Assembly: GCA_947629825.1 (NCBI GenBank)
Contig: CANRFF010000003.1
Location: 62,001-126,000, forward strand
DNA: 64,000 nt
Origin: an uncultured Anaeroplasmataceae bacterium
GTDB lineage: Bacteria > Bacillota_I > Bacilli_A > Acholeplasmatales > Anaeroplasmataceae
Direction of reading: 5' to 3'
Position 1 is the first letter of the stretch; every line of letters begins with the position of its first letter. The position numbers and the translations under genes were made by a program. Positions 3,309 through 62,808 of this stretch are shown here, piece after piece. The notes beneath the pieces were generated by a model. That model was not told the DNA's origin. It ran no database searches and saw nothing but the letters and a program-made list of their open reading frames with translations.

Positions 3309-3347
3309 AAAGATCGATAGGAAAATCCTATCGACCTCTTTTTTTTT
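3309..3347. terminator. Bidirectional terminator between CDF and PL9 genes
   Basis: The perfect stem CGATAGGA/TCCTATCG has a T run on the plus side and an A run on the other, so it can stop transcription from both convergent genes. It begins just after the PL9 stop codon. Confidence 0.8.
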
Positions 3348-6300
3348 ATGCGGTGGTTTCGATAAATTTCAGTTGCAGATAAGGAGCAACCAAAACTTTG
3401 GAATCTGCGTTTTCATAAACGGCTTCCCAAATGTTTTCCACATCGAATTCCGCATAGTCGATCCAGTTGTTGTTATGGCTTTCTTTGTATTTCATAGCGT
3501 TTGCCAGATCGGTTAAAGAATATGCGGTAACATCATAATCCGTATTGTTTTCTTCCATCATCGCAGCACAGCCTTCCACTAATGTTTCTGCGGCAGTACT
3601 GTAACCGCCGATGGTCGGAGATTGATTCTTTTGCGATGCTATAACGAGTTCGTTTTTGTAGTATTCCGTTTGAATCGACAAGCAACCTTTGATATGAAGA
3701 GGACCGACACCACTGTGGTATCCCAACATACCGCCGATACGACCGGTACCGGTATCTACCAATACACCTGCCGCAATACAATTGATGATTTCAACACCGA
3801 ATTCCAGACCGGCTCTTTGAGCATTGGCCAATTGTCCGTTTTCGTCATATTGACCGAGAATGGAACTTACACCGGAACCTCCACAGGAAATATAAGAATT
3901 GACATAGCAGTTTTCAATTCGTACCTGTAAAGAATTCTTAATCGGATTGTTGGTTTGAATATATCCGATCAAACCGCCGACTCTGTTTCCGGAACCGTAA
4001 ATGTAGAATTGTTCTTCCGGATCTTCCGGATCAACGGCGCCGGTAGCCAATAGTTTCGGAATCGGATTGACAAGAGAAACTTGAGTGATTTCCGTCGGAG
4101 TGGTTCCGTCGAATAATTGACCAATCAAACCGCCGGTTCTTTGATTGTTTCCGCGAATGTTCAAATTGGTAATGGCGATATTATGGAAATATCCACCGTA
4201 AACTCTGGAAGCAATCGCCGTTCTCTGTCCGCCGGTAATCGAAATCCGATCGAATTTGATATTGATGATCGAAGCGCCTTCGACATCTTTGAAAATACCG
4301 GTATTATCGCTGGTAGAAGAAATGGTAATGTTGGAAATCTTATGTCCCTGACCATTCAACAGACCTTTGAATTTTCCGGATGCCGGAGTATATGAAACGC
4401 CGGAGAAGTCCAGATCTTTGGTAACAAGATAAATCGTTTGCGAAACATTTTCTCCGTCCAACGTAGAACCGCCGGCAACTTTCATAAAGTCGGTTTCATT
4501 GTCGATGTTGACAACTTGCATTTGTGCTTGGTACAAAACGGAAGTGATCTTGTCTTCTCCGTTGGCCAAAGCATAGTAAACATAGTAACCTTTGCCGTTA
4601 TTTTGGCTGTAAGTGAAATTGATTGAAGTGGCTTTGAATTCTTTCTTTACCACGTTGGCATACGTTTTGATATTTTCCGTCGTTAAATCGGTAAGAGGTG
4701 TTTCGGAAGCCACCGAGTAAACAGAACCGATGACATTGGTTAAACCACCGGAGATGATATATCCGTCTCTGTATACGGAAACAGACGCTTCTCCGTCGAA
4801 ATCGACATCGGCCGAAGCGGTCGCAACATAGATTTGATAAGTAATCGATTGTTGAACACTCGGTTCACTTACAAGCGCAACGGTATGTGTGATTCGATAA
4901 ACACCCGGATGATTTACGGTAAATCCGTGTAATGTGATATATGCGTCTTTGGCAGATGGTGCATATTCGTAAGTGGATTCGACGATGTATTGATCTGCGG
5001 AAAGAAGAACTCCACTGTAATAAGCGGCATTCTGAACTTCCAATAGCGGTTCTTCATATAAACTGTAAGCGTCCATAATGATCTTTCCGCCGTCTTGATA
5101 AATATCGTCGGTTTCCGCAACTCTGATGACCATTTTTCCCAAAGCCGGTTCATCTTTTTTGATGACCAGTTTGAATTCTTTGGTAATGTTGTAATTTCCG
5201 CAAGTAATGGTTGCGGTCAAAGTAGCGGTTTGATCGGCATCGGTCGGTCTGGTTACCAGAATATTGAGATATTGACCGACAGCATTCCCGATTGTCAGAA
5301 GCGAACTGGAAGTAGACCAAGTGATTCTGCAACCACCCATGGAAGTAAATACCGGGAAGTTTTGATATACGGAATCCATTTCACAGTCCAACACCAGCGA
5401 TTCTTTTGCTTTCAACAATTTGGCAAAGGATTCGTTATTGATATCGTTTAACAGATTCTCGTCAACGAAATGTTTGTAGTCAGACCATTTGGTATGATTG
5501 AGTACCGATCCCGCTTTTTCGCCTTCTGCCAAAACGGCACCGAAATCGAAATCGTCTACAATGGCCAACAGATCACCCATATTGATGGAATGGTCTGCAT
5601 TCCGATATTTGTCGTGAACTCTTTCCGCCGTCGTGTGATCGGTGTCTCTCAATCCGCTGATCGCATAAGTGTAAGTCGAATCTTCCGGATTGAGCGTCAC
5701 AGGACATTTTTTGAACATCGTTTGGGAAAGAAGATCAATCTGAGAAGTATGATCGATTGCCGTTGCGGTTCTGGTATCGGTTTTCGTATCGGCATCGATA
5801 ACGCCTTTAACAACATTCGTTTTGCTTCCGGCGTACAATAAACTGTTCATTACGGAACCACGATAAGCGTCTGCGCTTAACGATTGGGCGATATCGCTTT
5901 TTACGGAAACCACGTTTTTCACGGTATTATAACTGTAAGATTGTCTTGCCACATCGATATTACTGTGTGTATCGTGATTTGCCGTGGAAATGATTTGTCC
6001 GAAAGTTTCACTGTCTTTATTGTCGTCGATTGCGGCCGAGTTATCGTAACTGGTTACGTTTTCGATTTTCAGATAACCCGGGTTGGAGTTATCGGTAACC
6101 CCATGCATTCTGTTCTGGAATGACAGACAGTTGTATAAGAAGACGTCTCCGTTCATTACGGAACCACCCAATTTGAATCCGTTGCCGTCTCCGTCTCTCG
6201 TCTTGAAAGAATCCAGATTCGGTTCATTGAACTCGGTTTTGTAATTCAATCTTTCATGATTTTCTTTTTGGGTATATTCCAGATAACCGTTTTCGAATGC

Positions 6301-7146
6301 CACGCAGTTATAGATAAATACGCAACCGATATTCCCACTGTCTGATTTCGCATATAAATCCCAACCGTCATCGGAGTTCCGATAAGCGATACAGCCATCG
6401 AAAACATTTCCGTGACCAATCGTCAATTTCGCAGCGAATCCGTCGGCATTTTCTCCATACGTCTCATCATCGTAATTGTTGTGGGAAGTACAGTTCTTGA
6501 TTAAATTGTAACTTGGCCAATAATTGATATCCGTAATTCCGCCGGAAGAACGACCCAACTGCAGACCGGAATCACGATTGTTGTAGAAATCGCAATATTC
6601 TACGGTGTTGTAACTTCCGCCGATATACATTCCGTTATCGCCGGCACCGCAGATATCGATTCCATACCAATCGATAAAATCGGCATTGATTTGTACTCCA
6701 CGGTTATTTCCGTCGAAAGCCATTTGACTGAAATCCAAAACGGCTTTCTTTTCGGAACCGGTATAACCGCTGTTTTCGTCATAAGCGGCATTGATGACTT
6801 TGATTCTTTTTTCAACTTTTCCGCTGGAAACCATTACCAGTCCCTGACTGGCTCTTTCATGTGTTTTCCAACCGATTTCCCATTGATAATTCCCCGGTAA
6901 AACGTAAATCACATCTCCGGGAACCAAAGAGTCCGAATTCAAAAGAGAAATATGGGCAGGGGTTTCCATTGTCAAACCGTCATTGTCCTTTTTTCCGTCT
7001 TTTGAGATATAGTAAGTATGCGGTTCGGGATCTTTCGGTTTCGTAGTATTATTGCTTCTCAATCCGAAAACCAATCCCAATACCAACCCCGTAATAGCCA
7101 ATACGGAGCAAATAGAAATAATAATCGTTAATTTTTTCTTACTCAT
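3346..7146 (-). CDS. Membrane-anchored PL9 pectate lyase with large C-terminal region
   Basis: A 1266-residue secreted protein with an N-terminal hydrophobic anchor (residues 6-29, no lipobox). Residues 44-420 form a right-handed parallel beta-helix of polysaccharide lyase family 9. The Ca2+ ligands of Pel9A (Asp209, 233, 234, 237) match Asp235, Asp259, Asp260 and Asp263 here with identical spacing (ADGFAAK and SDDGWD). The motif GDGNGFKLGG supplies the catalytic Lys325. It should cleave pectate by beta-elimination at the cell surface. Residues 560-830 look like Ig-type repeats. From about 870 onward there are GLUG-like glycine-rich coils (TGGLIGQ, VGGLIGY, IGGMLGY), perhaps for surface or glycan contact. 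It lies 14 bp after a lipoprotein gene with its own AAGGGAG site, so the two form an operon. The order of the accessory domains is inferred. Confidence 0.9.
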   Translation of the reverse strand: MSKKKLTIIISICSVLAITGLVLGLVFGLRSNNTTKPKDPEPHTYYISKDGKKDNDGLTMETPAHISLLNSDSLVPGDVIYVLPGNYQWEIGWKTHERASQGLVMVSSGKVEKRIKVINAAYDENSGYTGSEKKAVLDFSQMAFDGNNRGVQINADFIDWYGIDICGAGDNGMYIGGSYNTVEYCDFYNNRDSGLQLGRSSGGITDINYWPSYNLIKNCTSHNNYDDETYGENADGFAAKLTIGHGNVFDGCIAYRNSDDGWDLYAKSDSGNIGCVFIYNCVAFENGYLEYTQKENHERLNYKTEFNEPNLDSFKTRDGDGNGFKLGGSVMNGDVFLYNCLSFQNRMHGVTDNSNPGYLKIENVTSYDNSAAIDDNKDSETFGQIISTANHDTHSNIDVARQSYSYNTVKNVVSVKSDIAQSLSADAYRGSVMNSLLYAGSKTNVVKGVIDADTKTDTRTATAIDHTSQIDLLSQTMFKKCPVTLNPEDSTYTYAISGLRDTDHTTAERVHDKYRNADHSINMGDLLAIVDDFDFGAVLAEGEKAGSVLNHTKWSDYKHFVDENLLNDINNESFAKLLKAKESLVLDCEMDSVYQNFPVFTSMGGCRITWSTSSSLLTIGNAVGQYLNILVTRPTDADQTATLTATITCGNYNITKEFKLVIKKDEPALGKMVIRVAETDDIYQDGGKIIMDAYSLYEEPLLEVQNAAYYSGVLLSADQYIVESTYEYAPSAKDAYITLHGFTVNHPGVYRITHTVALVSEPSVQQSITYQIYVATASADVDFDGEASVSVYRDGYIISGGLTNVIGSVYSVASETPLTDLTTENIKTYANVVKKEFKATSINFTYSQNNGKGYYVYYALANGEDKITSVLYQAQMQVVNIDNETDFMKVAGGSTLDGENVSQTIYLVTKDLDFSGVSYTPASGKFKGLLNGQGHKISNITISSTSDNTGIFKDVEGASIINIKFDRISITGGQRTAIASRVYGGYFHNIAITNLNIRGNNQRTGGLIGQLFDGTTPTEITQVSLVNPIPKLLATGAVDPEDPEEQFYIYGSGNRVGGLIGYIQTNNPIKNSLQVRIENCYVNSYISCGGSGVSSILGQYDENGQLANAQRAGLEFGVEIINCIAAGVLVDTGTGRIGGMLGYHSGVGPLHIKGCLSIQTEYYKNELVIASQKNQSPTIGGYSTAAETLVEGCAAMMEENNTDYDVTAYSLTDLANAMKYKESHNNNWIDYAEFDVENIWEAVYENADSKVLVAPYLQLKFIETTA

Positions 7147-7160
7147 TTTCTCACTCCCTT

Positions 7161-9218
7161 TTACTGAACAACTTCAACGACAATCAGATACAGGTCGATT
7201 CCGTTGCTACTGCTTCCGAAATAAACGGTATCGTGTCCGCTGAAAGTGAATTCCGATCCGACCATGGTCTTATTGACTGGAGTGGAACAGGTTTCTTTGG
7301 TAGAAAAATTGTCAAAACTATAAGCGATATGTCGTGAATCATCTGTTGCACTTGATTTTCCGTAGACTGTGATCTTGTATTCCAAAGTAGCGTCCAGCGT
7401 CAACTTGATGGAACGTTTATTGGCACCTGCTGTTCCTTGAAGCGAATAAGTTTTCGTTACGGAATAAGATTGAGTTCCGTGTTGAATCGTTTGTGACGAA
7501 TGTTTCACTTTGATTGCATTGGTATCCAGAATGAAATCGATTCCCTTGACACTGCCGTCTTGCGGAAGAGTAATGGTTCCGATTTGATCTTTATTTGTAG
7601 CCGTATAAGAGGCATCTGCATCATCGACTCCCAAATTCAAACCGGTAAAATCAATGACCACCGGATCATAACTGATTTGAGGACCTCCCGTTTGTACCGC
7701 AACCGTATATGTAATGACCACTTTGTAAATATGCATCGTAACTGCATTGCCACCGGCATCATTCAATGTGGAAAGATAATAGGTTCCCGCACTGACATTC
7801 GTTGCTTCCAACAGATGCAATTTTTGAGTGGATGCACCGCTTGGGCCTACCAGAAGGGTTGCCAGCGAAGAAGAGCCATCTTTATTCGGACCGATGAAAG
7901 CCGTTCGATCGGCCGATGACGACGTATGAGAAATATACGCTTTAATCGAAACATCGGTGGCTTTCTCTCCGACAACAATGGTAATTTCTTTCCCGTTTTT
8001 GAATTCGGTATATACCGGACAAGTTACCGAACCATCTTCGGTTGATTTTTGCTTTGAGTCATTGAATTTCGTAGCATCGCATTTATTGGAAATCGCAACG
8101 TTGTTTTGAGGATCTTCCGTATCTGCACCCCAACTGGTCGCAAACGAACCGGAATCACTGCCTTTTTGAGCATCATAATTCAAAGTATAAGTAACGGTAT
8201 CGCCCGTGATCACTTTTGCGGTAATCGTATAAGTTACGGAGCAAGAAACGGAATGATCCGTTCCGGCCACATCTGCTTCGGTATAAGTTACCGTTGCGGT
8301 TTTGGATTGCCCCGGAGTAGCGGTATCGATATCAATTTCCAAACCGGAATCTCCTGCGTATATGGTTTTGGTCAATCCGTTTCCGTAAGTCAATTCGAAT
8401 ACCCAAGTTTCCGAAATGATATCTTTGGAACTTTGTTCTTGTTCGAATACGCTTGCCGAATCGGTTTTTAATGCGATAGCGGATACCGGATTGGAAACAT
8501 ATACGTTGATGAAATCCTGAGAAGAAGGATTGTCGGTAGAAATCACGGTGAATGAATATACGCCGTTTTCCGTAGCGACATTTCCATCGATTTTTTTGGA
8601 TCCGAGATATAATTGAGCGGTATATTTATCCGCAGCAAGAGGAGTTTCCCCGACCTTTCCATGATCGTCTACCGGATATACGGTAACGATATCTTTTGAA
8701 ATGGTAACGGACGGAGTTTGCGCCGACAACGTGTACACATTCGTTTGTCCGTCGGTCAGTTTGGCTACAATTCCTCCGTAAACTTCCGCTCTGGTGGAAA
8801 CCGTAACTTCATAAAGTTTCGATTTCGTAATTCCTTCGTGAGTATAACTTACAACGATTCGGTAAGTTCCGACTTGATCCGGTAAATAATCCTGACTTTG
8901 CAAGTCATATTTATCGCTGGATAGAATTTCCGTTACGACTTTGTTGTCTTTGGTGGAGGTATCCTTATATGTTGCGGTTACCACCATTCCGTCGGCGGAA
9001 AAAGCTTCCCCAAGTCTGAATTCGGTCTTGTAAGTACCGCTGAGAGCAATGTCTTGCAGTTCATAGCTTTCTTTGGTCTCACTGATGCCGAGATCATCGG
9101 CCGATTTATAAGGATCGTCTGTTTTACTTTCGTTGTTATTGCAGGCTGCCAGTGTGAATACGGAAACCAACGCAAACAAAAAAGTCAAAAAGACTCTCCC
9201 GAGACTTTTTTTCTTCAT
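7161..9218 (-). CDS. Surface lipoprotein with Ig-like and carbohydrate-binding-type domains
   Basis: A 685-residue lipoprotein with a lipobox LAAC (Cys26) after a short signal peptide. Residues 50-145 and the next 200 residues look like bacterial Ig-like domains (a YLPDQVGTYRIVVSY strand pattern). Two related beta-sandwich modules follow at about 350-510 and 525-685. Each ends with a strand pair of the type TYYLSTLND...IYKVVITY or TVYFGSSSNGIDLY, a pattern seen in modules attached to pectate lyases. No catalytic motif is visible. As first gene of the operon with the PL9 lyase, it is probably a pectin-binding or scaffolding partner on the cell surface; that role is inferred. The ribosome site is AAAGGAAAGGG. 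A consensus promoter lies 42 bp before the start. Confidence 0.75.
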   Translation of the reverse strand: MKKKSLGRVFLTFLFALVSVFTLAACNNNESKTDDPYKSADDLGISETKESYELQDIALSGTYKTEFRLGEAFSADGMVVTATYKDTSTKDNKVVTEILSSDKYDLQSQDYLPDQVGTYRIVVSYTHEGITKSKLYEVTVSTRAEVYGGIVAKLTDGQTNVYTLSAQTPSVTISKDIVTVYPVDDHGKVGETPLAADKYTAQLYLGSKKIDGNVATENGVYSFTVISTDNPSSQDFINVYVSNPVSAIALKTDSASVFEQEQSSKDIISETWVFELTYGNGLTKTIYAGDSGLEIDIDTATPGQSKTATVTYTEADVAGTDHSVSCSVTYTITAKVITGDTVTYTLNYDAQKGSDSGSFATSWGADTEDPQNNVAISNKCDATKFNDSKQKSTEDGSVTCPVYTEFKNGKEITIVVGEKATDVSIKAYISHTSSSADRTAFIGPNKDGSSSLATLLVGPSGASTQKLHLLEATNVSAGTYYLSTLNDAGGNAVTMHIYKVVITYTVAVQTGGPQISYDPVVIDFTGLNLGVDDADASYTATNKDQIGTITLPQDGSVKGIDFILDTNAIKVKHSSQTIQHGTQSYSVTKTYSLQGTAGANKRSIKLTLDATLEYKITVYGKSSATDDSRHIAYSFDNFSTKETCSTPVNKTMVGSEFTFSGHDTVYFGSSSNGIDLYLIVVEVVQ

Positions 9219-9259
9219 TTTTTCCCTTTCCTTTCAATTAACTTTTTGAGTTATTTAAT

Positions 9260-9288
9260 ATTATATCATGAAGAAAGCGTTTTCTCAA
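9260..9288 (-). promoter_or_regulatory. Promoter for the lipoprotein-PL9 operon
   Basis: On the minus strand TTGAGA (9288-9283), a 17-bp spacer and TATAAT (9265-9260) with a TG extension. It is divergent from the PL1 promoter about 60 bp away, so a shared regulator could act on both. Confidence 0.75.
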
Positions 9289-9347
9289 GCGTTTTATGTA
9301 ATTTTTGCCGAAAAAGAAAAAATCGAAATTTGTCCGGGCTTCTTTGC

Positions 9348-9376
9348 TTGACTTTTGCGATTGAAATCTTTATGAT
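9348..9376 (+). promoter_or_regulatory. Promoter for the PL1 pectate lyase gene
   Basis: TTGACT, a 17-bp spacer and TATGAT lie 34 bp before the PL1 start codon. Confidence 0.75.
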
Positions 9377-9409
9377 AAGAATTAGTTAATAGGGAAAGGG
9401 AATGTTAAA

Positions 9410-11815
9410 ATGATGAAAAGAAGAATAGTATCGCTTGCGGTTTTCATTTTTACGGGACTGATGTTATTGGTATCCTGTTCTTCGAAAACCCAAGAACCCG
9501 AACCGGAAACTCCGCCGACGGAATATACCATTACTTTCGAAGTCCATTCGGATTCGTTGGATACGGTATCGGTTTCCTATGAGGAAAGAACGTATTTGAC
9601 GGAAGAGATGATTTTAAAAGATGTTTATCATCAGACGAAGCCGACCAAAGAAGGATATACGGCGGAACATTGGTATCTCAATCCTTCTTTTCAAACCAGA
9701 ATTGCGTTTCCTTATCTGATTACCGAAGATGAAACTTTTTATTTGAAATGGGTATCGGACGAACCGAATCCAACGACGTTTGATGTGACCTTCGTCGATT
9801 GCGAAACGACGTTGAAAACCGAAAAAGTAACGGGAAATTCCATGGTAACTTCATGGACACCTCCTGCGAAAACGGGATATACTTTCGAAGGTTGGTATGC
9901 CGATTCGGATTACCAAACAGTCTTTGATTTTACTCAAAAAATTACGAAAAATACGACCATTTACGCCAAATATGTCATCAATGTATATACGGTGGAATTC
10001 TGGGCAGATACCGAAAAACTCAAATCCGTTTCGGTAGAATATAACACCTGTGTTACAAGACCGACGGAATTGGAAACCAAAACGGGATACACGTTTGACA
10101 ACTGGTATGCCGATGCCAATTTCAAAACGGTGTTTGATTTTGCACATCATCCGATTACCGAAAATACGTGCATTTACGGAAAATTCGATGTGATGACCGG
10201 AACGAATCCAATCGAAGTGGTATCTTTCGGAGGATATCGGGAAGGGGCGTATGTCGAACTTCGGAAACTTTCGGTTTCGAAAGACAAAATTCATGTTTTT
10301 TATCAAAAAGACGACGGCGATGAAACCGAAATCGATTCGGAACTGATCCGGGTTTCTCAGACGACGATTCGGGCAGATATTTTGGGTCTTTCGGCCGGAA
10401 CGTATTCCATAACGATTCGCGTCGACGGCATTGCCGATACGAAAAAAATCTCTTCCGTCGAAGTTTTACCGGAAGATCGTTCGGGCTATGCTCATTTTAA
10501 AAACACCGTTGGAATCGGAGCCTATAAAAACGACGGGACGTTGAAAGCAAATGCGGTGGTTGTTTATGTGACCGACGAAACCAAAAATACGGTAACGGCC
10601 GTCATCGGCGGAAAAACTTACACGGGGTTGGTCAATATCATTACGGCCTGCAACAAAGAATCTTATGCACTGGACGTAAGAATTTTGGGTGAAATTCAAA
10701 CGACTCAGTGGAATGCAAAATCTCACGGAACGGGAAGTACGTCCGCCCGTCAGGAAAATTTGGAAAATACTTTCAACTATCAGACGGATCCTTCGGGGTG
10801 GGACGAAACGAAATCCTCTTCGTATTCCCGTCTGTATGAGGATCAAATCATTGCCAAAGGAATCAATACGATGTCGCAGGATTCGGCTTTGGGAATCACG
10901 AAATTGGAAGGGTTGACCAATTACGTCAGCCGGACCAAAACAGCGAAATCGGGTATTTACGAATACGATTCTTACTATAATATGTTGGATGTCAATGGCG
11001 GATACAATATCACTATTGAAGGAATCGGAACCGATGCGGCCATTTTTCAATGGGGATTTACTTTCAAAAAATGCAATTTCATCGAAGTGAAAAATCTGCG
11101 GTTTTATCAGTATACGGAAGATGCGATCGGATTTGAAGGCGGAAGCAATTCCGATATCAATTACGGAAATTACTGGATTCATCAATGCACTTTCGATATC
11201 GGCGTCAACCACTGGGACGTTTGTTATGAAGCGGACAAAGGCGACGGCGACGGATCGACGGATGTGAAATACTGCCATAACGTAACGATCGACTATTGTC
11301 GGTATAACGGAACCCACAAAACCAATCTGATCGGTTCTTCCGATTCGGCTTTGCAGTACAACATTACGTTACATCACAATTATTATAATGAATGCGGTTC
11401 GAGAATGCCGTTGGTTCGACAGGCCAATATTCATATTTACAATAATTATTACTATAAGTCGACCAGTTACTGTTCGAGTATTCGAGCCAATGCGTTTGCG
11501 TTTATTGAAAACAATTATTACGATCAGGCAAAAAATCCGTTTGAAAATAAAGCAACGATCAAAGCCTACGGAAATGTTTTTTCGAATATTCCGGGATTGA
11601 GTAGCGGATATACTCAAGGAAATACGGTATCTTCCAGAACGGCGCAGGTTTCGGGAGAATGTCATCCCGACGGGAGTACGGACTACGCAAATTTCGATAT
11701 CAACGAGAATCTGTTTTACTATCAAAACGGAAAATCGGACGTTCTCGATTTATTGGAAGCGAATGCGGTTCCCGCTTGTTGTCAGAGATACTCGGGCGTT
11801 TTGAAAACGGCTTGA
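9410..11815 (+). CDS. PL1 pectate lyase lipoprotein with InlB-type repeats
   Basis: An 801-residue lipoprotein (lipobox LVSC, Cys24). Three Listeria-Bacteroides (InlB B-type) repeats follow; the second and third carry KTGYTFEGWYAD and KTGYTFDNWYAD, and the first, around residues 45-112, is degenerate. A linker domain leads into a PL1 beta-helix from about residue 450. PL1 signatures are WIHQCTF, DGSTDVKYCHNVTIDYCRYN, LIGSSD, and HHNYYNECGSRMPLVR with the likely catalytic Arg at 665 or 670. It should cleave polygalacturonate by Ca2+-dependent beta-elimination while tethered to the membrane. The repeats probably act as a stalk. It is transcribed divergently from the PL9 operon, so the two lyases probably attack pectin together. 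Start 9410 has AGGGAAAGGG upstream; Met2 (9413) is equally possible. Confidence 0.92.
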   Translation: MMKRRIVSLAVFIFTGLMLLVSCSSKTQEPEPETPPTEYTITFEVHSDSLDTVSVSYEERTYLTEEMILKDVYHQTKPTKEGYTAEHWYLNPSFQTRIAFPYLITEDETFYLKWVSDEPNPTTFDVTFVDCETTLKTEKVTGNSMVTSWTPPAKTGYTFEGWYADSDYQTVFDFTQKITKNTTIYAKYVINVYTVEFWADTEKLKSVSVEYNTCVTRPTELETKTGYTFDNWYADANFKTVFDFAHHPITENTCIYGKFDVMTGTNPIEVVSFGGYREGAYVELRKLSVSKDKIHVFYQKDDGDETEIDSELIRVSQTTIRADILGLSAGTYSITIRVDGIADTKKISSVEVLPEDRSGYAHFKNTVGIGAYKNDGTLKANAVVVYVTDETKNTVTAVIGGKTYTGLVNIITACNKESYALDVRILGEIQTTQWNAKSHGTGSTSARQENLENTFNYQTDPSGWDETKSSSYSRLYEDQIIAKGINTMSQDSALGITKLEGLTNYVSRTKTAKSGIYEYDSYYNMLDVNGGYNITIEGIGTDAAIFQWGFTFKKCNFIEVKNLRFYQYTEDAIGFEGGSNSDINYGNYWIHQCTFDIGVNHWDVCYEADKGDGDGSTDVKYCHNVTIDYCRYNGTHKTNLIGSSDSALQYNITLHHNYYNECGSRMPLVRQANIHIYNNYYYKSTSYCSSIRANAFAFIENNYYDQAKNPFENKATIKAYGNVFSNIPGLSSGYTQGNTVSSRTAQVSGECHPDGSTDYANFDINENLFYYQNGKSDVLDLLEANAVPACCQRYSGVLKTA

Positions 11816-12038: not shown

Positions 12039-13532
12039 TTATTTTAAAATCCACTTTCCGCCTTTATTAGATGTTTTACCTGACAGAAACTTTGCATTTT
12101 TCAATTCATTTATCGCTCTACTGACTGATGCAGTACTAATTCCTAATTTTTTTGCAATCTGAGGTTTAGAGATGGATAGATCTCCCTGTATTTCTTTATA
12201 AACCATTTGACTTGTTTTAGATAGCCTTTTTATCGTATCATTTATCGTATCATTTATCGTATCATTTCCGATTTCTTTTGACTTATCTTTTAAGATTAAA
12301 GTCAGAATAGTTCTATCCATTCCGATTTCTTCTGTGATCATAGGAGTCGGATAATTCTTTTCTTTGAAAGCATTGACAATGGTAGGAATGCCGGAACCGG
12401 CACGTTCTCCAATACCCAGTAAGTTAAAACACTTTAAAATGTTTCCGTTTCGCGGTAAAGAAATACCACCTTTATAAGCATCTTCAATAGAAATCCTTAA
12501 TGAACCCGGATTTTCAATAATAATTCGGTCGATATATCTTTTGATAACAATTCCTCTGGGAAAAGAGAAATCGGCATTTGTAATACAGTTTGCTAAAGCT
12601 TCACGGATGGCTTCATGTAAAGCGGTATCATTTTTTCTATAAATACGATTTTCTTCTAGTTCAAAAGGCAGAGGCAAATCCACACTGATTTTTGCATAAA
12701 CTCGATTATAAAAATCAAATAAATTTCCACTCCATTCGCCATTATCGGAAACAATCCTATCTGTATATCTGATATCGGGATCATGTGTCAAATGTTCCTG
12801 ATAATCTAAAAAGTATTCTGGAAGATATGAAGTAATATTATAGTCGTTACCAAAAAACAAGAAGCCAAATAAGGTAGGGTGAAGAATATTGTTTTCATCA
12901 TATGCAACAGCCCCGATAACTCTTAAAAATTCATCTTCGGAAAGATTGTGCCAAGGATGATTCGGCTTTTTGAACTTAAATTGTTCTCTAAAAGAATGAA
13001 CTGTTTTCATATTGAAAGTATCATCCCGTAGTGGAATATCTTTTAAAATACGATGATCCACATTTTTTTCTTGGTCTCTTATCATTGCAACCACTTCGGT
13101 TTTGGTACAATGATAATCTCCATCTTTATTTCTTCTAAAGGTTCCATTAAATATATCATTGTTAATGTAGATTGGCTTTTGAGAATAAGAGGCCATAGGA
13201 ATCTCAATAACCACTATGAAAGAAGAATTTATTTCTTCAATGTGAACGTTTTTTTCCTGAATTAAATTCAAATTTACTTTTTTATTATTGTGAATCGTAT
13301 TCCAAAAGGAAGTGATAAGGTTATCGCACTCTTTAAAAGATAAACCGGCAGGATATAAAGTCTTATTTTCCTTTTCGGCAATACCTAAAAGGATGACACC
13401 ACCATGTGTATTGGAAAAACTACTATACGTTTCCCAAATACTATTTGGCAAACCGCCTTTAGCGGTTTTAACTTCCAATTGATTATTTTCTTTTAAAGAA
13501 TAAAACTGACTGATATCGAACATTCTCACCAC
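12039..13532 (-). CDS. AlbA_2/Schlafen-type putative transcriptional regulator
   Basis: A 497-residue cytoplasmic protein. The N-terminal 130 residues form an AlbA_2 (Schlafen) domain with the typical opening E-N-x-x-LE-x-K and SFSNTHGGVILLGI. The middle is an HATPase_c_4 domain (ALHEAIREALANCITNADF, IIENPG, GIGERAGSGIP). The last 60 residues are a winged helix (ISKPQIAKKLGISTASVSRA). Such proteins are usually annotated as ATP-binding regulators; targets are unknown and some Schlafen-type proteins act in defence. A repeated NDTI linker precedes the winged helix. The gene is more AT-rich than its neighbours and stands alone between the pectin locus and rpoB, which suggests transfer. Start at 13532 follows the first Met; Met4 is an alternative. 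Confidence 0.85.
   Translation of the reverse strand: MVRMFDISQFYSLKENNQLEVKTAKGGLPNSIWETYSSFSNTHGGVILLGIAEKENKTLYPAGLSFKECDNLITSFWNTIHNNKKVNLNLIQEKNVHIEEINSSFIVVIEIPMASYSQKPIYINNDIFNGTFRRNKDGDYHCTKTEVVAMIRDQEKNVDHRILKDIPLRDDTFNMKTVHSFREQFKFKKPNHPWHNLSEDEFLRVIGAVAYDENNILHPTLFGFLFFGNDYNITSYLPEYFLDYQEHLTHDPDIRYTDRIVSDNGEWSGNLFDFYNRVYAKISVDLPLPFELEENRIYRKNDTALHEAIREALANCITNADFSFPRGIVIKRYIDRIIIENPGSLRISIEDAYKGGISLPRNGNILKCFNLLGIGERAGSGIPTIVNAFKEKNYPTPMITEEIGMDRTILTLILKDKSKEIGNDTINDTINDTIKRLSKTSQMVYKEIQGDLSISKPQIAKKLGISTASVSRAINELKNAKFLSGKTSNKGGKWILK
12232..12267. repeat. Three tandem 12-bp repeats in the regulator gene
   Basis: The unit ATCGTATCATTT (plus strand) occurs three times in a row without mismatch. 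It encodes NDTI repeats in the linker between the ATPase and winged-helix domains. Unit gain or loss would keep the frame. Confidence 0.9.
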
Positions 13533-62744: not shown

Positions 62745-62808
62745 GGAATTGTAGGTGTTTTACAAATATCTACAAAATATAAGAAAGGAAAAGAAAAGAA
62801 AGTTAAAA

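Follow-up and report, generated by a model that had tools for sequence, protein, structure and literature searches.

How does a bacterium from a lineage close to the Mollicutes come to cut pectin at its cell surface, where did the genes for this come from, and what becomes of the products? The question is raised by three genes in a 64,000-nucleotide stretch of an uncultured Anaeroplasmataceae genome (GenBank assembly GCA_947629825.1, contig CANRFF010000003.1, positions 62,001 to 126,000), hereafter the window. A PL9 pectate lyase of 1266 amino acids (aa), called from the open reading frame (ORF) list and from profile and phmmer matches (3346-7146, minus strand), lies directly behind a 685-aa surface lipoprotein that we term LP (7161-9218, minus strand), with a gap of 14 bp between them, while a PL1 pectate lyase lipoprotein of 801 aa, its lipobox read from the sequence (9410-11815, plus strand), runs divergently from LP across a gap of 191 bp. 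We propose, with a probability of about 0.78, that LP and PL9 are an imported clostridial unit which, together with a native PL1, forms the outer end of a native pectin pathway.

The window PL9 is 61% identical to that of locus L074 and 58% to that of L056, both from genomes recorded as uncultured Clostridia or Clostridiales bacterium, and 33-39% identical to the PL9s of six congeners (G042, G045, G046, G048, G050 and G051); the rpoB product is 90-91% identical to its counterpart in 10 of 10 congeners. A tree of 71 PL9s places the window row with L074 and L056 (support 100) inside a clade of 35, the other rows of which are Clostridia or Clostridiales except for "Bacillales bacterium UBA1744", and seven congener rows fall in a separate clade of 28. 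A tree of LP (31 rows) is congruent with that of PL9. By these comparisons the LP-PL9 pair looks like a xenolog acquired as one unit from, or through, Clostridia, and we infer the direction of transfer. PL1 is nearest to that of congener G050 (62% over residues 103-800) and is, on this identity, native to the genus, which rules it out as part of the import. The original prediction had called the PL9 divergent; PL9 being clostridial in type and PL1 native, the divergence is mainly that of an imported PL9.

The two imported genes belong together well beyond this genome. An ORF matching the LP model lies directly upstream of PL9 (within 400 bp and on the same strand) in 64 of 70 loci with a long PL9, which come from two bacterial classes. 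Of these 64, 35 are among the 36 sequences that went into the model and match it by construction, and 29 lie outside it. A cut-off of 300 bits against the window PL9 gave 64 of 69, and as L114 (253 bits) was left out only by that cut-off, the fair figure is 64 of 70; lower-scoring proteins are shorter PL9s or have other architectures. Five loci whose genomes are represented by another locus were dropped, as was L047, which holds a different protein. Among the misses, L080, L089 and L099 stand where a contig ends, no ORF lies within 400 bp in L049 and L094, and the 1321-aa PL9 of L114 (G054; duplicate L048) follows a helicase-like gene, not an LP. The PL9 frame of L054 is split, so that a weak match (6.2e-07) hits a PL9 fragment, with LP one ORF further up. 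Relatives of LP were reached through PL9, for which the best 80 of 514 were kept in the search of named genomes; a search of these with LP's own sequence found no relatives, LP probably being too divergent. Judged by gene order, the pairing of PL9 with LP is nearly constant and extends to Clostridia, and LP represents a family, unnamed by the libraries used, that is nearly always found beside a long PL9 in Clostridia and Anaeroplasmataceae. Neither a PL9-lipoprotein pair nor pectin use by Anaeroplasmataceae appears in the titles and abstract openings found, a scope outside which most subscription papers lie; the accessible part of one paper lists only taxa and pectate lyase read counts (PMC5114307).

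What might LP contribute to the pair? It has a lipobox, read from the sequence, and one stretch matching Big_3 (PF07523), which together with the structure model points to an Ig-like region of probably three domains (residues ~47-347; 8178-9080, minus strand). The model continues with a first jelly roll, which is less certain (residues ~371-508; 7695-8108, minus strand; predicted local distance difference test score, pLDDT, mostly 59-90; structural rows spanning residues 340-506), and a second that resembles a carbohydrate-binding module (CBM; residues ~515-685; 7164-7676, minus strand). Mean pLDDT is 81.1 and the predicted template modelling score (pTM) 0.42, a value at which the placement of domains relative to each other is unreliable. 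Residues 516-685 superpose on the carbohydrate-binding domains of a putative pectate lyase (8wc1/8x8h) with a Z of 14.6 and a root-mean-square deviation of 2.8 Å over 145 of 151 residues, at 18% identity, and the next-best fold, a xylan-binding module, reaches a Z of 9.9. A phmmer search of LP against solved-structure chains, up to E 1, gave no chain of the 8wc1/8x8h type and nothing of value. Foldseek with the whole model returned many unrelated multidomain proteins, toxins included, at low template modelling (TM) scores, and we discarded these likenesses as signs of kinship, reading them as common jelly-roll and Ig folds only. The binding-type lipoprotein of the original prediction is thus recognizable from its lipobox, Big_3 match and jelly rolls, its binding being a prediction from the model, and LP probably holds the pectin chain for PL9. 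We infer this binding, as we do the enzymatic activities of PL9 and PL1.

The rival that survives best sees in LP no more than a spacer or anchor, or a partner in the folding and surface assembly of PL9, and no binder of glycans. LP length varies from 239 to 1197 aa across loci, pieces at contig ends aside, and as read from the sequences it is the jelly-roll part that varies, the Ig part staying constant; LPs of 239-333 aa exist beside PL9, two of them, of 251-252 aa, lacking on reading any CBM-like sequence. That the Ig part is the conserved one, and that the shortest LPs seem to lack the CBM-like part, counts against our view and means that pectin capture may not be the core role of LP. Against the rival stands the second jelly roll, for which a pectate-lyase carbohydrate-binding domain is the best match, ahead of the xylan-binding module in Z. 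We regard this rival as less likely than not, but more probable than the others. In G044 (L206, 252 aa) and G050 (L041, 251 aa), the LPs beside PL9 seemingly keep the Ig-like parts without a jelly roll.

The position of the pair in congeners bears on how it was acquired. LP-PL9 lies between a pectinesterase-type gene and the membrane and ATP-binding cassette (ABC) permease genes in G042, G045, G046 and G048, and beside the same pectin-cluster genes, at a contig end, in G049; the PL9 of G043 is on a contig of 5.6 kb, so its place cannot be told. The native cluster of our genome, on contig C2, comprises a PF01095 pectinesterase, a GDSL esterase, an ABC ATPase, a GH28 and permeases that reach 83% and 86% identity to those of congeners, but no LP-PL9. 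As the pair is also missing at that place in G044, G047, G050 and G051, its loss there predates the import and a simple swap does not describe the history. LP-PL9 pairs of other types are found elsewhere in these four genomes, that of G047 being at the far end of this very cluster, and the genus holds at least three PL9 lineages. The PL9 profile PF22842 is matched in 46 of 55 family genomes, and once in ours. A separate feature of the native cluster is a Spo0A homologue (receiver plus Spo0A_C domains; L202:11274-12053, C2 ~16.3-17.1 kb) beside the pectinesterase and transporter genes, with relatives at the same place in several congeners.

Vertical descent would account for the same distribution if an ancestor had two LP-PL9 paralogs and this genome kept the copy that its congeners lost. 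The several PL9 lineages of the genus speak for such a history, gain and loss being common; yet among the family PL9s in the tree, which are part of the 46 PF22842 genomes, only the window copy falls in the clostridial clade, and approximately unbiased (AU) tests reject its grouping with the other clade both for PL9 (32-row tree, window row forced with 17 rows of that clade; difference in log-likelihood 249.7, p 4.5e-66) and for LP (99.8, p 2.4e-4). We consider this explanation improbable. Import itself faces several objections. All trees are quick ones, and the groups put to the test were defined only once the first tree had been seen. Even the nearest clostridial PL9 has only the 61% identity given above, and the family includes long PL9s without LP (L049; L048/L114). 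The GC content of LP and PL9 is 43%, against a mean of 41% for the window's other genes and 46-50% for clostridial genes, and their GC at third codon positions (GC3) is 0.41-0.45, against a mean of 0.445 for those other genes and 0.58-0.61 for clostridial PL9s. Base composition was therefore set aside as an uninformative sign of transfer, and because it is not clostridial, the transfer would be old or the donor unsampled. Lastly, the control genes agree with the genus (UxaC 91-93% to four, KduI 90-92% to three, a KduD-like protein 91-98% to three), but UxaC is also 84% identical to that of L056 and 82% to that of L074, and the KduD-like protein 84% to that of L106. These values are far above those of rpoB, which aligns with the L056 and L074 genomes in two stretches of 60-61% and 45-46%, being of another build there, and parts of the inner pathway may thus have been exchanged too, earlier and genus-wide. 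The loci of our genome have ~38-42% GC and the congener loci L040 and L043 ~32%, despite rpoB proteins ~90% identical.

The catalytic part of the PL9 protein is a right-handed beta helix (residues ~43-560, outer limits approximate; 5467-7020, minus strand), preceded by a hydrophobic N-terminal anchor that, as read from the sequence, has no lipobox cysteine. PF22842 matches with 33.1 bits (cut-off 25.2), PF20578 is also above its cut-off, and phmmer aligns the protein with Pel9A (1ru4) at 5.7e-21. Residues D235, D259, D260, D263 and K325 fall on 1ru4 chain positions 184, 208, 209, 212 and 248, counted along the alignment, which we take to be D209, D233, D234, D237 and K273 of Pel9A, namely the four calcium aspartates and the catalytic lysine; they are invariant in 15 of 15 aligned PL9s. 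The helix is followed by an aBig_2 domain (residues 592-664; 5155-5373, minus strand; profile match, and structural match to AbnA with a Z of 13.0), further Ig-like domains and, in a model of residues 565-1266 with mean pLDDT 90.5, a second, C-terminal beta helix (residues ~876-1264; 3355-4521, minus strand). The latter resembles the M26 IgA1-protease-type fold (3n6z; Z 27.8 over 288 residues), a likeness of fold only, and neither Pfam nor NCBIfam lists a protease domain in PL9 up to E 1. In loci L112 and L121 a short PL9 (516 and 521 aa) precedes a second protein, of ~1000 aa, similar to the C-terminal half of the window PL9, as if the long PL9 were a fusion product, or the two-gene arrangement a split.

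PL1 matches PF00544 with 77.7 bits (cut-off 24) and PelC (1air) at 1.2e-19 in phmmer. Its catalytic domain (10994-11521, plus strand) holds D571, D614, D618, K620, K637, R665 and R670, of which the last six align with PelC positions 166, 170, 172, 190, 218 and 223, presumably calcium and catalytic sites of PL1. D571 is, by our reading, probably the equivalent of PelC D131, although HMMER's own alignment sets another residue there; D571, D614 and D618 are present in 12 of 12 aligned PL1s and R665 in 11 of 12, the remaining one being gapped. A mark against ordinary PL1 function is that the protein reads YWIHQ where vWiDH aligns, a Pel-superfamily motif that may not be strictly defining. Three stretches of Listeria-Bacteroides (Flg_new) repeats (PF09479) lie closer to the N-terminus (9623-10204, plus strand, limits approximate). 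A search with the PL1 protein finds one match in this genome, versus 5 to 41 in congeners, many being repeat domains; by this count the genome looks pared down in PL1-like surface proteins. The original prediction of two pectate lyases from different families, with calcium and catalytic residues intact, agrees with both profile matches and with the positions kept relative to 1ru4 and 1air. The enzymology of the locus is mostly ordinary, and what is unusual is the tight pairing of LP with PL9 across two classes and the import of the whole pair into a pathway of which the other genes tested go with the genus.

Plant pectin need not be the polymer attacked, and a third explanation has the true substrate as another uronic-acid polymer, such as a bacterial exopolysaccharide or a host glycan. 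The long non-catalytic C-terminal half of PL9, with its second beta helix, would fit such a substrate, as would a further phmmer match of PL9 to a rhamnogalacturonan lyase (5olq, 1.3e-07), but the aligned catalytic sites are those of pectate lyases and relatives link the same pair to pectinesterase-type, KduI and Uxa-type genes. In L074 the pair lies directly behind genes for KduI, an ABC-ATPase-like protein, UxaB, a UxaA-like protein and UxaC; clustering gives L056 this same order, except that one ORF separates UxaC from LP; and in L065 the KduI/Uxa-type genes come after the pair, which is thereby independently tied to uronate catabolism. We judge another substrate unlikely, to much the same degree as vertical descent. 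A binning or assembly artefact, by which a clostridial fragment was joined into the contig, could be imagined of a 12-contig assembly when the L056 and L074 genomes, at 1.5-1.6 Mb, are about as large, but is very improbable given that LP-PL9 is on a 219,730-bp contig beside the native PL1 and ~4.6 kb from an rpoB that is congener-like, that its GC3 is near that of the window's other genes and, for PL9, unlike the clostridial values, and that contamination is 0.23% and no other PF22842 match occurs in the genome.

Where the products would go is answered elsewhere in the genome. The flanking genes include none for sugar transport or uronate use, in keeping with the original prediction, which had guessed that uptake and catabolism genes might be distant. 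Genome-wide, there are a pectinesterase (CE8), a GH28, four GH88/105 matches (GH105-type among them), an ABC transporter, KduI, KDPG aldolase (Eda) and UxaC. KduI, KDPG aldolase and tagaturonate reductase (UxaB) pass their NCBIfam cut-offs; two kinases have KDG-kinase-type models as best matches, below cut-off; the KduD-like gene clears the cut-off for gluconate 5-dehydrogenase rather than for KduD; and the UxaA-like gene has only a galactarate dehydratase match, below cut-off. KduI and UxaC are each found in 11 of 11 genomes of the genus and Eda in 10 of 11. The sharing of oligogalacturonides with other cells, which had also been suggested, need not be invoked with the inner pathway present in the same genome, and we rejected it as the main outcome. 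As read from the sequences, CE8, GH28 and three of the four GH88/105 proteins have no evident signal peptide, and the fourth has a lipobox. This agrees with a pathway in which uptake precedes de-esterification, like that of Paenibacillus amylolyticus 27C64, for which the accessible part of the report describes extracellular PL1 and PL9, a cytoplasmic GH105 and no requirement for an extracellular pectin methylesterase (PMC7267202).

The gap between LP and PL1 may also hold the control of the locus. Promoter-like sites stand at sensible distances from both genes, TTGAGA-17-TATAAT with a TG extension before LP-PL9 (9260-9288, minus strand, read 9288-9260) and TTGACT-17-TATGAT before PL1 (9348-9376, plus strand), but the number of such sites in the region is not above that in shuffles (17 versus a mean of 19.7, standard deviation 3.9), so the back-to-back consensus promoters originally proposed are plausible only. 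A palindromic operator, GAAAGCGTTTTC (9273-9284, either strand), resembling a catabolite-responsive element (cre), overlaps the LP-PL9 promoter. The stretch 9271-9285 departs at one position from WTGNAANCGNWNNCW, which we take to be the cre consensus for CcpA; the window holds about as many such matches as chance would give (57 versus a mean of 48.3), and we dropped the consensus alone as evidence and then tried the narrower palindrome GNAARCGYTTNC. Because the window and its relatives supplied this pattern, its match in the window by itself counts for nothing. In 240 kb of this genome it has three copies, of which the only two intergenic ones lie in the LP/PL1 gap and in the divergent promoter of the native pectin cluster; four control patterns have 0-2 copies there, none intergenic. 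Genome-wide, it occurs 6 times versus 17 for the reversed pattern, and this lack of enrichment counts against control through the site; 5 of the 6 are intergenic if a 109-codon low-complexity ORF is ignored. The other copies precede an EF-G-like gene and the gene of a solute-binding-type lipoprotein or adjoin a GidA-like gene, all named from their sequences, so that GNAARCGYTTNC would be at most a general carbon-control site. Just upstream of the EF-G-like gene, a cre-like palindrome is seen in two genomes (G000:C3:8932 and G045:C32:86738). In 11 of 12 family loci, which are mutually related, a cre-like match centred on CG is found no more than 220 bp from LP, L051 having only an unlike match; among clostridial loci a weak match occurs in 2 of 10, and some of the ten, L074 for one, have other genes ahead of LP in the same run. 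The genome has one PF00356 match, a LacI-type regulator whose best NCBIfam model is ccpA (299.7 bits, below the cut-off of 442), and we would give about even odds that this single CcpA-like protein controls LP-PL9 through the cre-like site.

On one side the locus is flanked by a cation-efflux gene and a class A penicillin-binding protein, on the other by an AlbA_2/HATPase_c_4 gene and rpoB, the latter named from its sequence and from the rpoB searches. The penicillin-binding protein (237-2123), with transglycosylase and transpeptidase domains, suggests peptidoglycan synthesis in a lineage named after the wall-less Anaeroplasma. The AlbA_2/HATPase_c_4 protein (12039-13532), between PL1 and rpoB, has a C-terminal winged helix, and BLAST found no homologue of it in the fetched relative loci. 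Just past the window (L197:721-1320), near a secreted protein that starts at 62755, is a 199-aa lipoprotein whose best match is the LP of a clostridial locus (31% over 124 aa).

Under the proposed import, PL9 and PL1 would cut homogalacturonan at the cell surface into unsaturated oligogalacturonides, with LP, made up of Ig-like domains and CBM-like jelly rolls, probably holding the chain for PL9. The products would enter by the genus's native ABC transporter, whose specificity we presume, and be finished inside by CE8, GH28 and GH105 before passing to KduI, the KduD-like dehydrogenase, the KDG-kinase-like protein and KDPG aldolase, with UxaC, UxaB and the UxaA-like dehydratase alongside. LP-PL9 would have come as one unit from or through Clostridia to its new place beside PL1. 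A cell-surface pectin-cutting locus near the Mollicutes, as first proposed, is supported, the congeners being recorded as Anaeroplasmataceae or uncultured Mollicutes bacterium. More tentatively, at somewhat less than an even chance, we suggest that LP and PL9 are a two-part transferable capture-and-cut module, in which the Ig/CBM lipoprotein would offer pectin to its cognate PL9, and that it moved between classes as a unit onto a conserved inner pathway and regulation, the outer module being repeatedly replaced within the genus. If right, this is a clear case of a substrate-facing outer step swapped across classes while transporter and catabolism stay with the lineage, and it makes testable whether a dedicated surface-binding partner serves pectin degraders beyond Bacteroidota and whether such a partner has to match its lyase.

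Among known systems, P. amylolyticus 27C64 likewise places PL1 and PL9 lyases outside and GH105 in the cytoplasm, in line with the lack of an evident signal peptide in CE8, GH28 and three of the four GH88/105 proteins here; it differs in that lyases of PL3 and PL10 are also tabulated and an LP-type partner is unmentioned in the accessible part of that report (PMC7267202). At the level of the enzymes, Pel9A shares with the window PL9 its catalytic beta helix, calcium aspartates and catalytic lysine, but is a chain of 400 residues, whereas the window protein adds a surface anchor before and ~700 residues of domains after. PelC shares the PL1 family and the calcium and catalytic arginine positions, whereas the window PL1 is a lipoprotein with Listeria-Bacteroides repeats and an altered vWiDH. 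Gram-positive polysaccharide utilisation loci combine an ABC transporter with GH and PL genes under LacI-type control; here the outer lyase module is of foreign origin and unlinked from the transporter cluster. LP itself recalls the surface glycan-binding proteins (SGBPs) of Bacteroides polysaccharide utilisation loci, two of which (7kwb and 6e57) are among the Foldseek matches of its model at low global TM-scores (0.12-0.19); such proteins carry Ig-like domains and a terminal glycan-binding module on a lipoprotein. The trait typical of SusE/SGBP-type proteins, Ig-like spacers and a terminal CBM on a lipoprotein, is present in LP, but no SusC or SusD was found among the six scanned proteins of the locus and its neighbours, making LP alike in working and not a member. 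If the proposed capture-and-cut role is true, the LP-PL9 module would be a counterpart of surface glycan-binding proteins outside Bacteroidota.

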